A stretch of 45,796 nt of DNA from Eubacteriales bacterium (GTDB taxonomy: Bacteria > Bacillota > Clostridia > Saccharofermentanales > Fastidiosipilaceae). The position numbers were made by a program, and so were the translations under genes. This document shows, piece after piece, positions 38,242 through 45,796 of the stretch. The stretch's first letter is position 1; each line of letters begins with the position of its first letter. Location: NCBI GenBank assembly GCA_030537565.1, contig JAUNVS010000002.1, positions 23,208-69,003 of the forward strand, written 5' to 3'. The notes under the pieces are model-generated. The model made no database searches, was not told where the DNA came from, and saw nothing but the letters and a program-made list of their open reading frames with translations.

Positions 38242-39465
38242 CTAAATGAGATCAAGCGCAATCTGATCAGCGAAGTCGAGTCCCTTTTCACTGAGGATAT
38301 ATTGACCTTCGGGGAGAGCTTCGAGGAGACCCAAGCGATGGTGCTTCTCCAAAGCCGCCTGAAGAGTTTCAGGAAGCTCACAAGCAAATCGTCTTTGAAA
38401 ATCGCTGCCAGCAAAGGGTCGTAGTAGGCGCAGGGCAAAACAGACTTGCTCGCGCATCGCCTCCTCCCGATCGACAAAGAGATCCTCGCTATATTGATGG
38501 GTGATGAGTTCCTCAGGGAGTTTGGGGTTAATGCGACGATGCCCCGCCAGATATGAGGCGGCCCCGAGACCAAAGCCATAGTAATACTCACCAAGCCAGT
38601 ACGCTGCATTGTGCCTGGAATATTGATGATTACGTGCGAAATTAGAAATTTCATACTGTTGGTAATCATGTTGTCTGAGGCAGCAAAGAGCCGTATGAAC
38701 CAATTCTCGCTCTATGTCTTCATCAGGCAGTTCCACCAAGCCCCGCTGATGGGCACAGTAGAGCGGGGTGTCTTCTTCGAGGATTAGCGAGTATGCGGAA
38801 ATGTGTTCGAAGCCAAGATCGGCAAAGGCTGCAATCGACGCTTCGATCATCTCCGAACTTTGCCCAGGAAGGGCTAGGATGAGGTCTGCGCTGAGATTCG
38901 TGAAGCCCTGTCTTCGAGCCTCGCGGCTAAGGGCCTCAACATCAGAGAAGCGATGCAGGCGGCCAAGACGACGCAAAAGATGATCTTGTATGGCCTGGAC
39001 ACCGATACTAAGGCGGTTAAATCCCGCCGATCTCAGTAGCCCAAAGTCAGTCTGCCTTAGAGTTTCAGGATTCATCTCGATGGTTATTTCTGCGTTGGGA
39101 GCTATGGAAAAAGTGGAGTCCAGAGCATTGAGAATTCGGCAGAGGTCTGCACTTGGCAATACAGTCGGCGTTCCCCCGCCGAAGTAAATGGTCTCGAGCC
39201 CCTGGCCAGAGGTATTCGGATACTGTAACGCCGTGGATTTAATCTCTTGAATCAATAAATCCGCATAGTCCTCGGGATGGCAGTTGAGCCGTCTTTGTTG
39301 ATTGGGTGAATATGAAAGGAAGTCACAGTAGATGCATTTGTGGAGGCAAAATGGAATGTGGATGTACGCCGATAGCGCTGGACGATCGACTCGATAGGCG
39401 CGCGCTCGAAAAGGGTAGCTCGTCTCGAGCGAATTGAAGAGGTCATGGGGAATTCGTTGATTCAT
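38242..39465 (-). CDS. hemW: HemW-like radical SAM heme chaperone
   Basis: 407 aa. AYIHIPFCLHKCIYCDF carries the CxxxCxxC Fe-S/SAM motif followed by the extra-residue pattern of the HemN/HemW family. Further family segments: TIYFGGGTPTVLP, ITIEMNPETL, GFNRLSIGVQAIQDHLLRRLGRLH, NLSADLILALPGQ, HISAYSLILEEDTPL, YEISNFAR, NAAYWLGEYYYGFGLGAASYL. HemW was long annotated as oxygen-independent coproporphyrinogen oxidase but in tested species acts as a heme chaperone. A hemW gene before hrcA is standard in Firmicutes. Its start overlaps the DUF4276-like stop (ATGA) and has no ribosome site of its own, so translation is probably coupled. Confidence 0.93.
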   Translation of the reverse strand: MNQRIPHDLFNSLETSYPFRARAYRVDRPALSAYIHIPFCLHKCIYCDFLSYSPNQQRRLNCHPEDYADLLIQEIKSTALQYPNTSGQGLETIYFGGGTPTVLPSADLCRILNALDSTFSIAPNAEITIEMNPETLRQTDFGLLRSAGFNRLSIGVQAIQDHLLRRLGRLHRFSDVEALSREARRQGFTNLSADLILALPGQSSEMIEASIAAFADLGFEHISAYSLILEEDTPLYCAHQRGLVELPDEDIERELVHTALCCLRQHDYQQYEISNFARNHQYSRHNAAYWLGEYYYGFGLGAASYLAGHRRINPKLPEELITHQYSEDLFVDREEAMREQVCFALRLLRPFAGSDFQRRFACELPETLQAALEKHHRLGLLEALPEGQYILSEKGLDFADQIALDLI

Positions 39466-40151
39466 CGATTTTGTGGATGGACTTTTTGGCGCAGAGCTTT
39501 TCGAAGCTTGCGGCGAAAACTGATATACGATGGCGATTGGTTGTGTTCAGCATCAAGTAGCGGGCTGATTCTTTCCGCCCAGGACATTTTATAACGACCG
39601 ACACTTGGGTAGCCTTCTTCAATAATCTGCTCTGCACGCTTCCCTTCTAGAACCCGACAGAGGTATTCCCAGGTCCCACAGACCGAATCCTGCTGATATT
39701 GCTGATAGAGCTGAGCATCGTAGTCGGGATAGGCGGATGCAATCGCTGCTTCGTCGGCGAGCATCCAGGACTCCAACTCTTCGACCGCTATCGCGATAAT
39801 CGCTCGACGGCCCTGGTAATACTTCCCCAAGACAGTTTCTATCTGCTCTCGCAGCTCTTCGGGATCATTGCGATCGGAATCAAAACAGATGATAAGCAAA
39901 TCCGATTCGACATCTAAGATACGGCGATAAGCACGTAGCTTGGCAGGCAAAAGATCAAGTAGGCCCCCCAACAGTGGCGACGGCTCAGCATCCCAGTTAC
40001 GAGGTAGGTGTCCAAGTCCACGATGGGCCCGAAGATCGTTCGTAATATCCAGACCGATCTCCGCTTCGAGACCACTGAGTTCCTGCTCACAGAGGCTACG
40101 AAAGATCAGCGCACCCGAGCGATCCTCGACGAGGGCCTCAACGTGCATCAT
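39462..40151 (-). CDS. DUF4276-like (TOPRIM-related) protein
   Basis: 229 aa from ATG 40151 (GGGGAG 7 bases upstream); an ATG at 40175 overlaps the upstream stop but lacks a site. The opening MMHVEALVEDRSG matches the VExxSE-type start of DUF4276/TOPRIM-like proteins, followed by LLIICFDSDRNDPEELREQIE (an acidic DxD-like cluster) and the characteristic AIAVEELESWMLADEAAI. DUF4276 proteins are repeatedly encoded next to OLD-like AAA ATPases, and related ATPase plus TOPRIM pairs (for example PARIS, Gabija) act in phage defence as nucleases. A basic C-terminal tail (SFRRKLRKAL) may bind nucleic acid. Function here is inferred from the pairing. Confidence 0.68.
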   Translation of the reverse strand: MMHVEALVEDRSGALIFRSLCEQELSGLEAEIGLDITNDLRAHRGLGHLPRNWDAEPSPLLGGLLDLLPAKLRAYRRILDVESDLLIICFDSDRNDPEELREQIETVLGKYYQGRRAIIAIAVEELESWMLADEAAIASAYPDYDAQLYQQYQQDSVCGTWEYLCRVLEGKRAEQIIEEGYPSVGRYKMSWAERISPLLDAEHNQSPSYISFRRKLRKALRQKVHPQNR

Positions 40152-40174
40152 TTCAAATCTCCCCGCATCCCGCA

Positions 40175-41485
40175 TCAGAAATAGCCACCATACCAGAGTT
40201 GCGAGAGGTAGACCCCTTCGTGGAGCATCTCGCGAACGAGCTCGTTTTCAGCGAGGCAATAGGGCGGCTTAATCACGGCCCCGCCCGACTCATCTTCAGA
40301 ACGCTGGAAGCACCAGATTTCTTTAGGACTGAAATGGTCGAGGAAGTTCGGATAGTGAGATGTTAAGAATATCTGCGAATTTGAAACCTCGTGGGTGACC
40401 CGCCGAATGGCAGCAGCCAAGATTTCAACATTGTCGGGATAGAGATTCTGTTCTGGGCTTTCAAAGGCAAATATGCTGCCAGACCTCGCCTTTTGCAAGT
40501 GGTCGAGAATAACGAGGGCGCGCTTCTCAGCACCCGAAAGATCGGACAGTGTCTGTTTTAGCGAGCGATTTCGCTTGAGATCCGCATCCAATTTAGCGAG
40601 GATATGCCCCGCCTCCCGCTGATGAAGAGCCAGATGCGAATTGTGTTTAACAATATCTCTGATATCTGGGAGCTCTAGTGATTCTAAATTCGAAGCAAGA
40701 TCCAGATGGAGGTCCAACTCGATCCCTGATAAGAGCTCGGCAAAACGGTCAATCGCGGCCGAGTCCGATTCCGAGAAATAAGCTCTTAGTGGCTCTAAAG
40801 CAGATGATTTCGCCTGATTTTGCACGAGAGCGGCTACAGGACGATTATCCCAAGTGGGATCGAGTGAAAAATCCTCATGCTTGGAGAGCGCACGCAATCG
40901 ATTCCGGCGACGATAAAATAGAACCTCCGTCGGAGCCAATTCATCGGCCTCGATGGCATCAAGCGCAAAACTGCGTCGTTTCCCCGCACAGAGTTTGATG
41001 AGCCCAAGTTCAATCGATGAAACGCTGAGGGCTTCGGCAAGTATATGCATCGCATCACTTCGCGTTTCGCCAGGATCGAGTTCATCCAATTCAAGAGCCA
41101 AGTCGTAGCGATAAATTTTCCGATGCTTGCGATCGAGGAGGTAAACAATCCATCGCATCACCCGCTCTTCGACCCGGTGAATATGACGAGGCCGCATGCC
41201 AAGGATGGCTTGCGGCGCACGCGTCATCGTCAAATACGAATCCTCACTCACTGGAATCGGTTCACTAAAGAGTAGGCTGAGACAGTTCAGGGCAGTCAAA
41301 ATCGTACTCTTACCCGACCCGTTGGGTCCGATTAAGGCAGTGATCGGCGTCAGCGGATAAATCCGCTTTAGAATCTCCCGCCGCGATTCTGGCTTCGTCA
41401 AATAATGGGCTAGTGCTTGGCTCTCGAGACCGAGGCGAAGCTGTGATATCCCCCCGAAATTTCTTGCCTCAAAGCCAACTAGCAT
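40175..41485 (-). CDS. AAA ATPase of the OLD/AAA_21 type
   Basis: 436 aa from ATG 41485 (GGAGAGAG 5 bases upstream, overlapping the SPFH stop region). SMC/ABC-like layout: FEARNFGGISQLRL start, Walker A LIGPNGSGKST (about 52-61), a long middle region, signature LSGAEKRALVILDHL, a Walker-B-like IFAFESPEQNLYPDNVEI (acidic Glu plus SPEQ in place of DEPE) and IFLTSHYPNFLDHF (H-loop). Cytosolic ATPase resembling those that pair with DUF4276, DUF4435 or RloB effectors in defence systems. The stop overlaps the start region of the DUF4276-like gene, so the two are a unit. It is embedded between stomatin and hemW rather than in a recognisable defence island. Confidence 0.76.
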   Translation of the reverse strand: MLVGFEARNFGGISQLRLGLESQALAHYLTKPESRREILKRIYPLTPITALIGPNGSGKSTILTALNCLSLLFSEPIPVSEDSYLTMTRAPQAILGMRPRHIHRVEERVMRWIVYLLDRKHRKIYRYDLALELDELDPGETRSDAMHILAEALSVSSIELGLIKLCAGKRRSFALDAIEADELAPTEVLFYRRRNRLRALSKHEDFSLDPTWDNRPVAALVQNQAKSSALEPLRAYFSESDSAAIDRFAELLSGIELDLHLDLASNLESLELPDIRDIVKHNSHLALHQREAGHILAKLDADLKRNRSLKQTLSDLSGAEKRALVILDHLQKARSGSIFAFESPEQNLYPDNVEILAAAIRRVTHEVSNSQIFLTSHYPNFLDHFSPKEIWCFQRSEDESGGAVIKPPYCLAENELVREMLHEGVYLSQLWYGGYF

Positions 41486-41486
41486 A

Positions 41487-42422
41487 CTAACTCTCTCCGT
41501 TTTCCTTCGTCTCAGCAGCAATCTTACCCGCAGAGATCAGTGAAGTTAAGTTCTGGATCTCGCTAGGAATGATCAGTTTCGTCGCCTTACCATCAGCGAC
41601 TTTTTCGAGGGCATCCAAACTACGTAGGGCAATCAGGGCATGGTCTGCTTCAACCGACTTAATCAAGTTCAGGGACTCCATCTTCGCGCGGGCCACCGTA
41701 AGCATCGCCTCGGCCTCACCCTCAGCTTGGAGAATCTGAGCTTGCTTCTCACCCTCAGCAACCCGGACCTTTGATTCTTTTTCAGCCTCAGCCATGCGGA
41801 CCATCTCACGCTTTTCGCGCTCAGCCTTCATCTGCTTCTCCATCGCATTGCGAATTTCCTTTGGTGGAAGGATATTCTTCAACTCAACACGATTGACCTT
41901 AATCCCCCAAGGATCCGTCGCTTCATCAAGGATGATTCGCATCTTGCCGTTAATCAGATCACGGCTCGTCAGGGTTTCATCCAATTCCAGATCACCAATG
42001 ATATTTCGCAGGGTGGTCGCTGAGAGATTTTCAATCGCCAGAATTGGACGCTCAATACCGTAGGTATATAAAACAGGGTCCGTGACTTGGTAGAAGACAA
42101 CCGTATCGATCTGCATCGTAACGTTATCCTTCGTAATAACGGCTTGGGGCTCGAAGTCGGCAACCTGCTCCTTCATCGAAACAGCCGATTTCACACGTTC
42201 AATAAATGGAACCTTAAAGTGAATCCCCGTCTGCCAAGTCGATTTATATGCGCCGAGTCGCTCGATAATCTGGACAGATGCCTGGGGCACAATTCGCACG
42301 CAGCGACTGATGACCCAAAGAAGCACAACAATGAGGATAATCAGTCGAAGTTCTGGACGCTCTAGAATCGCACCCTCCGACCTACGAGCAAGCAGCAAGT
42401 TCATTAAAAGCATGGAATTCAT
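41487..42422 (-). CDS. SPFH/stomatin-family membrane protein
   Basis: 311 aa. Short N-terminus, one membrane helix (about 25-43), then the SPFH/band-7 domain: VRIVPQASVQIIERLGAYKSTWQTGIHFKVPFIERV, VITKDNVTMQIDTVVFYQVTDPVLYTYGI, ATTLRNIIGDLELDETLTSRDLINGKMRIILDEATDPWGIKVNRVELKNILPPKEIRNAMEKQMKAEREKREMV. A coiled-coil helix rich in Glu/Lys/Ala follows (MAEAEKESKVRVAEGEKQAQILQAEGEAEAM). Forms oligomeric rings that organise membrane microdomains. The NfeD partner is immediately upstream (GGAGG spans the stop), a conserved pairing. Confidence 0.93.
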   Translation of the reverse strand: MNSMLLMNLLLARRSEGAILERPELRLIILIVVLLWVISRCVRIVPQASVQIIERLGAYKSTWQTGIHFKVPFIERVKSAVSMKEQVADFEPQAVITKDNVTMQIDTVVFYQVTDPVLYTYGIERPILAIENLSATTLRNIIGDLELDETLTSRDLINGKMRIILDEATDPWGIKVNRVELKNILPPKEIRNAMEKQMKAEREKREMVRMAEAEKESKVRVAEGEKQAQILQAEGEAEAMLTVARAKMESLNLIKSVEADHALIALRSLDALEKVADGKATKLIIPSEIQNLTSLISAGKIAAETKENGES

Positions 42423-42912: not shown

Positions 42913-44277
42913 TTATTCTGCGTCGATCCGCACAGCAACCCCGTCGCTACAGCCCTTACGTAGAGCGCCGAGGCATAGGAACGCGACCGTATTAACTCGC
43001 CGCTGCAACTGATTGCGATCGAGGATCCGCTCGAGGCGTGCACGATTATCATAACTTGTTCCAGACACGCGACCACCGCTACTCGAAAAACTCGGGTTGC
43101 GGTTCTCGCACTGGTCAGAAAAATCCTTACCATTGTAATCGTATGATTCAACGAAGGCACAGGGGATTCCCAACTCATCTGCAACTAAATAATCGGATCG
43201 ATTATAGCTAAATTCACGATATAGAGTACGCGCTTGCGTCAGTGGATTGGGAACATCAAAAATCGATTCATTCAGGAGGAGATCCTCGCCATTATCGTAG
43301 AGCAAACCCGTTTCAAGCGAGACATCCGTCATCTCATAAATCTTGCGGCGCAAGAGATACTTACGGTCACTATCGATTGCCTGCCAACCTGCGTGGACAT
43401 AGAGCGAATCGCCCGCATAAATATTTCTCAACTCATAGAAACAGTCGATATTGTCCAGTTCCTCATCACTGAAGTGCGCAAGCAACTGACGGGTTCCCTC
43501 ATAGTTATTACCCGAGGCCGCAACAAAGGCGAGCGTCACGTCATAACCGAGGTTCTCATTCTTCAACAGCTTGGCCAGGGTCAAAAGAGAAGCGATCCCC
43601 GAAGCATTATCAGATATCCCCTCCAACTCACTAGCCTCATAGACGACTTCGCCACGATTCTCGGCACGGGCCCAGGCAAAATCGTCGGGCTTCGCCTCAC
43701 CGTTTTCATCCGTCTCAGTCGGCACCGTCTCTTCACTTTCGCCGGGTGTCTCACTCGGCTCCGCCTGTGCCTCTTCAGTACATAGACGAGTTGCCAAAAT
43801 CACCTGGCGCGAGAAGATATGTCCATAAATCTGCCCCTGATCTGGCTCGACGTAGAGCTTATCAATGAGATTCACAGGTCGATAGCGAAATCCACTTCCT
43901 GGAATTTTTACAATAATATTCGAGACGCTACTGCCATTCGACGTGAAAGTCTGACGTTCCGGATGGTAGCCCAATGCGGTCAGGGCATTAAAGACCATCT
44001 CGCCCGCTGCCTGCTCCTGGCTCGAACCTGAGGGTCTCGGGCCGAGAGCTGCGATCTGATTCGCGATCTCAGCGCCATAACTTCCGTAATCCGCCAGCTT
44101 CTCATCCTCCCGATCTTCACCGCAAGCACTCAGGGGGAGAATCATGAAGGCACAGAGTAAAAGCAGAGCGAGACTACGGAATATTGCCGATCTCGGCTTC
44201 CCAGAGTTTGACGATGCGCTCAAGCGCTGTGTATTCACTAAATTTAATGATGCGCATGAGCGCTGCCTAACGATCAT
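42913..44277 (-). CDS. M28-aminopeptidase-fold lipoprotein, probably inactive
   Basis: 454 aa; ATG 44277 with GAGG about 9 bases upstream gives an unusually long 50-residue lead before the lipobox LSAC (Cys52). The mature domain resembles the M28 zinc peptidases: YGAEIANQIAALGPRPSGSSQEQAAGEMVFNALTALGYHPERQTF (69-111), VSNIIVKIPG, VILATRL (159-165), GISDNASGIASLLTLAKLL (220-238), VTLAFVAASGNNYEGTRQLL (247-266). The metal ligands are largely missing: the His of VIIGAHYDS is Arg164, the Glu-Glu pair of GAEExGLxGS is absent at 254-259, and the NxD block reads YELRNIYAG. Only Asp223 of SDNASG remains. An acidic Pro/Glu/Thr insertion (about 168-200) sits in the active-site loop. First gene of the operon leading to hemW. 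Confidence 0.72.
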   Translation of the reverse strand: MIVRQRSCASLNLVNTQRLSASSNSGKPRSAIFRSLALLLLCAFMILPLSACGEDREDEKLADYGSYGAEIANQIAALGPRPSGSSQEQAAGEMVFNALTALGYHPERQTFTSNGSSVSNIIVKIPGSGFRYRPVNLIDKLYVEPDQGQIYGHIFSRQVILATRLCTEEAQAEPSETPGESEETVPTETDENGEAKPDDFAWARAENRGEVVYEASELEGISDNASGIASLLTLAKLLKNENLGYDVTLAFVAASGNNYEGTRQLLAHFSDEELDNIDCFYELRNIYAGDSLYVHAGWQAIDSDRKYLLRRKIYEMTDVSLETGLLYDNGEDLLLNESIFDVPNPLTQARTLYREFSYNRSDYLVADELGIPCAFVESYDYNGKDFSDQCENRNPSFSSSGGRVSGTSYDNRARLERILDRNQLQRRVNTVAFLCLGALRKGCSDGVAVRIDAE

Positions 44278-44319: not shown

Positions 44320-44371
44320 CACCAAGAAGAAGTGGGGATTTTTGCCTGTCCCTCTGAACTAGGAGGCTGAA

Positions 44372-45796
44372 TTGACTAAACTAAGCCATTCAAATCGACG
44401 CAGTACAGAGCAGCACAGCTCCGTGAATACACTGAGCTTTTCCGCCCGGAGATGGGCGCTCATCTTACTTGCTTGCCTCAGTCTTATTTACCTCTCTCCA
44501 ATTATGCAAGTCGCTATATACGCTGAGAGCGATGGCCACACTTCAGAGCCTTCGAAACGGGAGGAGCCCATCGAGGATCTCGTCCCAGCTCTAGCGATTG
44601 ACCAAGATGCTACCGCCTTTAACCGAGATCCCTACCGCATCGCTTCACAAACCACAGATCCAAACGGCAGTCTAGATATCTCTGCCAACACCCTGCTCGT
44701 CATCGAAAATGATCATCAGATCCCCCTCCATGCAAAAGAAGCTCAGCTCATCCGCAACTCGCCGCTCGCCTTCCAGCTATGTCTCGCGCTCTGCGTCATC
44801 GATCGCTTCAGCGAAAACGATGAGGTCGTCGCCGCCGCCCTCGTCAACAACGAGCTGGATCCAAACTTCAAGTTAAAAGCGGGCGAGTCCTATCCAGTAT
44901 CCTACCTGCTCTACGGTCTACTCCTCGAAGATAGCCTCAACGCCCGACTCGCCCTCTGTCAGGCCCTCGCGGACAGCGAAGCCAACTTAATCCAGATGAT
45001 GAATAAAAAAGCCAGCGCGCTGAATCTTCTCGATAGCAAGTTCTATGCCATCCCCCTACCTCGAGCGGAAAATCGTAGTCAACTTTACGCCCCCTACTTA
45101 TTAAAGGACTATAACTCATCTCGAGAAGCCTCAGTCAGCACAGCAAAGGATTGCCTTGTCTTCTATCAGAATGCGATGAGTTCCAAGCGGCTCTCAACGA
45201 TTTTAAAAACTCGCGACTATTCCTACTTTTCTCTAAACATTTTACGTTTATTTAAAAGCCGTCTCGCCCTCGCCTTCGACCTCTTCGCTCCCGAGATCGA
45301 ATCGGCCGCCTATTCCGAATCGCCAGATCACTTCGACCTCATCATCCAGACCAACGAAGGTGGATTTCGCCGCATCAGTTTCCTCTCCTATAATTTTAGC
45401 GACCGCGATGTCGACCTCCAGCGGGCTCTCAACGATTACCGCCGTCTAAACGATCGCGTCTCAAAGATTTGGGAAAACACCCTTCTCTTCTATACAGGGC
45501 AAGCCTACGTCGATAAGCTCAACGTCGAAGGGCGCGAGGTTGGCTTGAAGATTAATAAAGAAGTGCGCTATGTCCATCCCGTGGGTGAGTTGTTCATTCA
45601 CGACATGCAGATCCAAGACTTATCCAGCGAGCAATTGAGTCTCCCCATCCACCAAAATCAGCTTGTCGCCCGACTCAACATTCACTTAGAAAACGGAACC
45701 TCCCTACTCTGTGACCTAGAAGCCAGCGAAACCGTGCGCGCAGAAGTCCGTTTTGGTCTCCTCGTCGAACTCCACGATCGATACCCAATTTTGATT
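44372..45796 (+). CDS. D-Ala-D-Ala carboxypeptidase (DacA) homologue, probably inactive; 3' partial
   Basis: Reads open from TTG 44372 (AGGAGG 5 bases upstream) to the window end, 475 codons, so the 3' end is missing. One hydrophobic signal/anchor (about 28-50), a spacer, then a PBP5-like domain from about 100: ISANTLLVIENDHQIPLHAKEAQLIRNS, YPVSYLLYGLLLEDSLNARLALCQAL, LIQMMNKKASALNLLDSKFYAIPLP, LIIQTNEGGFRRISFL, and the PBP5 C-terminal sandwich (VGLKINKEVRYVHPVGELFI, LSLPIHQNQLVARLNI). The SxxK tetrad is lost: where PASLTK is expected the protein has NSPLAF, with Pro131 for Ser and Phe134 for Lys. SxN remains as SLN (188-190); no KTG was found. Carboxypeptidase activity is unlikely; it may bind wall peptides. 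Divergent from the M28-fold operon. Confidence 0.72.
   Translation, partial: MTKLSHSNRRSTEQHSSVNTLSFSARRWALILLACLSLIYLSPIMQVAIYAESDGHTSEPSKREEPIEDLVPALAIDQDATAFNRDPYRIASQTTDPNGSLDISANTLLVIENDHQIPLHAKEAQLIRNSPLAFQLCLALCVIDRFSENDEVVAAALVNNELDPNFKLKAGESYPVSYLLYGLLLEDSLNARLALCQALADSEANLIQMMNKKASALNLLDSKFYAIPLPRAENRSQLYAPYLLKDYNSSREASVSTAKDCLVFYQNAMSSKRLSTILKTRDYSYFSLNILRLFKSRLALAFDLFAPEIESAAYSESPDHFDLIIQTNEGGFRRISFLSYNFSDRDVDLQRALNDYRRLNDRVSKIWENTLLFYTGQAYVDKLNVEGREVGLKINKEVRYVHPVGELFIHDMQIQDLSSEQLSLPIHQNQLVARLNIHLENGTSLLCDLEASETVRAEVRFGLLVELHDRYPILI

Follow-up and report, generated by a model that had tools for sequence, protein, structure and literature searches.

A conserved family of PBP5-type proteins without carboxypeptidase active-site motifs in an order of Clostridia

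At one end of the analysed window, a stretch of 45,796 nucleotides from a genome of the clostridial order Saccharofermentanales, lies a gene for a PBP5-type protein in which none of the motifs SxxK, SxN and KTG is intact in the family alignment. With a probability of roughly 0.6, we read this protein as a membrane-anchored pseudo-carboxypeptidase, which would neither cut D-Ala-D-Ala nor bind it covalently and would act by contact, its sandwich domain serving to scaffold or regulate. The lack of catalysis is well supported, and the partner and mechanism are put forward as a proposal.

The gene and its two-domain product

The gene (44372..45796, forward strand, as are all features of its product given below) starts with TTG and remains open up to the end of contig C18 at contig position 69003, which is also the end of the window; its product comprises 475 residues and its 3' end is missing. 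The TTG start claimed in the earlier note was confirmed, with an AGGAGG ribosome-binding site (44361..44366) located 5 bases upstream. Another contig of the same genome, C53, begins with a gene that we take to be DUF5685-like and with gltX; since these are the genes expected downstream, the missing end is probably in the assembly gap between C18 and C53. The sequence and the model helix both reveal an N-terminal hydrophobic helix (residues 23-50; 44438..44521), which is likely a signal peptide, presumably cleaved at VAIYA/ES. A linker modelled with low confidence leads to two folded domains: the former carboxypeptidase domain I (residues about 101-366; 44672..45469), delimited by Pfam, the model and the structure match, and domain II, a membrane-proximal beta sandwich that is PBP5_C-like by descent (residues about 367-455; 45470..45736), delimited by the model and the structure match.

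The window protein scores 30.1 bits against Peptidase_S11, above the Pfam gathering cut-off of 27.6 bits, in the profile alignment proposed earlier as a check; this single-protein match is confined to profile positions 81-166 and leaves the SxxK segment outside, and relatives score 80-132 bits. Single-protein matches between the window protein and its relatives go down to E 1.9e-24. The family profile A1, built from 30 relatives and including the window copy as one of its rows, gives 341 bits over profile positions 3-377 of 418; only the last 40 or so positions, which hold the transmembrane segment and the tail, are missing. An AlphaFold model of the window protein (17 sequences, pLDDT 76.5, pTM 0.70) matched E. 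coli PBP5 in Foldseek (E 3.6e-21) and S. pneumoniae PBP3 in VIA-align (Z 30.0, 341 aligned residues, spanning 101-456). Because the model matches the complete PBP5 architecture, both halves are kept, in agreement with the earlier claim of a PBP5 layout that includes the membrane-proximal sandwich, the better conserved half in the order. The Pfam PBP5_C model has no match in the window protein, though its fold aligns to residue 456, and is matched by the orthologues L071 and L066. The structure search also returned YxkC-DacA (PDB 9a4z), which looked like a lead to a DacA partner.

A simple hydropathy cut called a C-terminal transmembrane helix in 63 of 67 family members; two of the remaining four are cut at contig ends and two have long tails. 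In members not cut short, the helix is accompanied by a basic tail, and in the window copy it would lie past the contig end. The protein resembles the PBP5/DacA-type low-molecular-mass PBPs (Peptidase_S11 plus PBP5_C), such as E. coli PBP5, S. pneumoniae PBP3, B. subtilis DacB and S. aureus PBP4, in its end-to-end two-domain fold, its export signal and the C-terminal membrane anchor seen in orthologues, which is a transmembrane helix rather than the amphipathic helix of E. coli PBP5. Unlike the PBP5/DacA-type PBPs, the family of the order is without SxxK, SxN and KTG, and domain II is its conserved half.

Elsewhere in the window, no Rfam elements were found. An AAA ATPase (448 aa) and a DUF4276-like protein (237 aa), encoded at 39462-41521 on the reverse strand, correspond to HEC-01A/HEC-01B, a candidate anti-phage pair (E 2.5e-27 and 6.8e-60). 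Seven relatives have the pair at the corresponding syntenic position, an unusual pattern for a defence system.

Loss of the active site in the order and across the class

In the family alignment, the SxxK helix of the window protein is represented by PLAFQ (residues 131-135; 44762..44776), with Leu132 in the Ser column and Gln135 in the Lys column, the SxN motif by DSL (residues 187-189; 44930..44938), and the KTG motif by AYS (residues 313-315; 45308..45316). The loss of SxxK recognized in the earlier note stands; the residues it named, Pro131 and Phe134, are one off, as they align four residues (Pro131) and one residue (Phe134) ahead of the catalytic Lys column. The SxN motif is likewise lost, and the SLN reported in place of SGN (residues 188-190) is one residue out of the family register, in which the columns hold D187-S188-L189; this is the least certain of the three motifs, since the sequence alone leaves a margin of one residue in its register. 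The reported absence of KTG is borne out at A313-Y314-S315, and neither KTG nor KSG was found anywhere in the window protein.

The gene had been treated as a single odd case; it is instead one of a conserved orthologous family, with a full-length orthologue detected by the A1 profile search in 35 of 58 genomes of the order (families f1, f3 and f4), mostly in the same syntenic place. The same search found no orthologue in any f2 genome sampled, so the family is not universally needed; it is also missing in a few f1 and f3 genomes. The shared gene order includes dnaJ-dnaK-grpE-hrcA-hemW, in many genomes SPFH and NfeD genes, then an M28 peptidase on the opposite strand, the dead gene, gltX and glnS. 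In the window, the divergent M28-type peptidase neighbour, assigned by Pfam and synteny, is located at 42913..44277 on the reverse strand, and this adjacency is conserved in the order. A phylum-wide search produced five further matches near E 1e-51, which were rejected as family members because their coverage, which ends by profile position 368 of 418, resembles that of ordinary S11 proteins.

No SxxK is present in any of the 29 aligned members of the order, the window protein included; Ser is retained in one, which has Arg at the Lys place. In a set of 30 ordinary S11 paralogues taken from this order, Ser, Lys and both together are each found in 29. An ordinary f2 paralogue outside the family (L056 in G057) has AITQ, with Ala and Gln at the SxxK columns, a separate loss. 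As no aligned member of the order has SxxK at the right place, its protein is firmly predicted from the aligned residues not to act as a carboxypeptidase, and covalent beta-lactam binding is not expected of it, as had been anticipated. The window genome encodes one S11 protein that is apparently intact by its motifs (SLAK, SGN and KTG; contig C5), as well as a VanY-type peptidase. The dead copy is the sole S11 match even at E 10 in three genomes (G003, G007 and G011), and in a fourth (G010) it is accompanied only by a sub-cut-off S11 fragment.

A class-wide search identified a separate high-scoring set in families f10, f19, f28, f55, f65, f69 and f87. A branch of the tree (100/100) separates the ordinary S11 proteins from this set and from the copies of the order; the f55 loci L071 and L075 belong to the same family as the window copy by profile score, tree position and C-terminal helix. 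Active sites in f55 are mostly intact (SANK, SGN or SAN, KTG), with Cys for Ser in one, and L071 and L075 (SANK/SGN/KTG) are, judging by these motifs, probably active enzymes. The loss in f87, f65 and f19 is limited to Ser, in some cases together with one residue of KTG; in f28 it comprises the Ser of SxxK, that of SxN and the Thr of KTG; nearly all active-site residues are lost in f10, and all in the order of the window. With SxxK ancestral and no regain, which is our assumption (unconstrained parsimony gives five changes of Ser state), the tree holds six losses in the family and one among 32 ordinary rows, which suggests about six independent losses of the active site in the family. The close orthologues L188 (G392) and L187 (G166) differ by a Ser-to-Cys replacement at the nucleophile column, while SAN and KTG are retained; this may be a CxxK variant. 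Two members have unusual surroundings: the open frame around L025 (G044) is unusually long upstream (830 aa), and a 1003-aa frame adjoins L101 (G038).

Conservation of the two domains

The two kinds of protein were compared within the same eight f4 genomes. The mean pairwise identity of the ordinary paralogue is 0.66 in domain I and 0.28 in domain II, and that of the dead copy is 0.48 and 0.65, respectively; this paired comparison is the firm part of the constraint shift. The f3 dead copies have a mean identity of 0.38 in domain I. The difference in identity between domains II and I is -0.38 for the ordinary paralogues, -0.14 for f55, -0.02 for f28, -0.04 for f10, +0.16 for f3 and +0.17 for the f4 dead copies. 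It rises broadly with loss of the active site, a trend that is only suggestive, because divergence differs between the sets; in f55, unlike the order of the window, domain I is still the better conserved half. As measured by these identities, conservation in the order has shifted towards the membrane-proximal sandwich and away from what was the catalytic domain, the reverse of the pattern in ordinary paralogues. Conservation of domain II is not in itself proof of a binding site.

Possible role of the protein

Since related clostridia keep the same dead gene in the same place under strong selection, a non-enzymatic job in the cell envelope is probable. By ancestry and placement, the protein would be a PBP5/DacA descendant that is secreted and anchored C-terminally in the membrane. 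Its sandwich and anchor may hold a partner, such as a PBP, a SEDS protein, a wall hydrolase or another envelope protein, the dead domain I may serve as a spacer, lid or docking surface, and the protein could thereby localise or tune wall enzymes. The basic residue, Lys or Arg, that 19 of 29 members of the order keep at the Lys place counts against this scheme, as it would be odd were domain I only a spacer.

That residue, together with a domain I of full length and fair conservation (the f4 and f3 means given above), would suit a non-covalent substrate sensor, in which the dead groove binds uncrosslinked pentapeptide or lipid II uncleaved and reports the precursor level or guides localisation. 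We consider such a sensor unlikely, because the residues that hold the peptide and its carboxylate, namely Ser and Asn of SxN and those of the KTG strand, are also replaced, and because in E. coli PBP5 the Ser44Gly substitution alone disperses the protein from wall-synthesis sites, with loss of septal placement (PMC2909392); moreover, domain I is the faster evolving half in the order. The earlier note had suggested binding of wall precursors or other PBPs without hydrolysis: with SxN and KTG lost, the precursor part is disfavoured, and binding of proteins fits better.

It is less probable still that the active site was rebuilt, with other residues doing the chemistry, for instance the conserved Ser at the centre of the D-S-D motif, or a Ser shifted upstream by one position, which some orthologues of the class have. 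The middle Ser of the SxN place does persist in 27 of the 30 members from the order, but A1 has six invariant columns (A, L, G, Y, P and P), and these contain no new invariant Ser-Lys or Cys-His set; in addition, constraint on the catalytic domain is relaxed relative to domain II. A functionless, slowly decaying relic of an old DacA is very improbable. The window copy, which diverges more than any other in the set (end branch 2.83, best identity 26%), and the gaps in f1, f2 and f3 would fit such decay; against it stand frames that remain open across 18 genera, the conserved synteny, long conserved blocks in domain II and dN/dS values between species of about 0.1 (0.07-0.21 for pairs within the order). 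Given this divergence and a genome 84% complete, purifying selection is shown for the relatives and not for the window copy. Hardly credible, finally, is an active DacA with SxxK kept through a shifted alignment, the outcome that the earlier note had named as its refutation: the single-protein Pfam match leaves room for it, but the family profile places the helix in register with the relatives, and the sole S..K of the window protein is STAK at residue 256, which aligns to a loop-helix region well downstream of the nucleophile helix.

The pseudo-carboxypeptidase would resemble pseudoenzymes in general, as an enzyme fold under selection without catalytic residues; a published non-catalytic S11 branch was not found in a literature search of open-access papers. 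For the PBP5-type lineage in Clostridia as a whole, we give slightly less than even odds to a history in which a structural or regulatory job borne by the sandwich would predate the loss of catalysis, the active site would have been shed about six times independently once hydrolysis was no longer required, and the protein of one order would have become a purely non-enzymatic factor of the cell envelope.

PBP5-type carboxypeptidases are very widespread, and to our knowledge the role of their sandwich domain has been unclear. The natural series of orthologues from intact to dead, with constraint moving to the sandwich, would make the question of sandwich function testable, and it would be a mistake to count Peptidase_S11 matches in genomes of this kind as penicillin targets.
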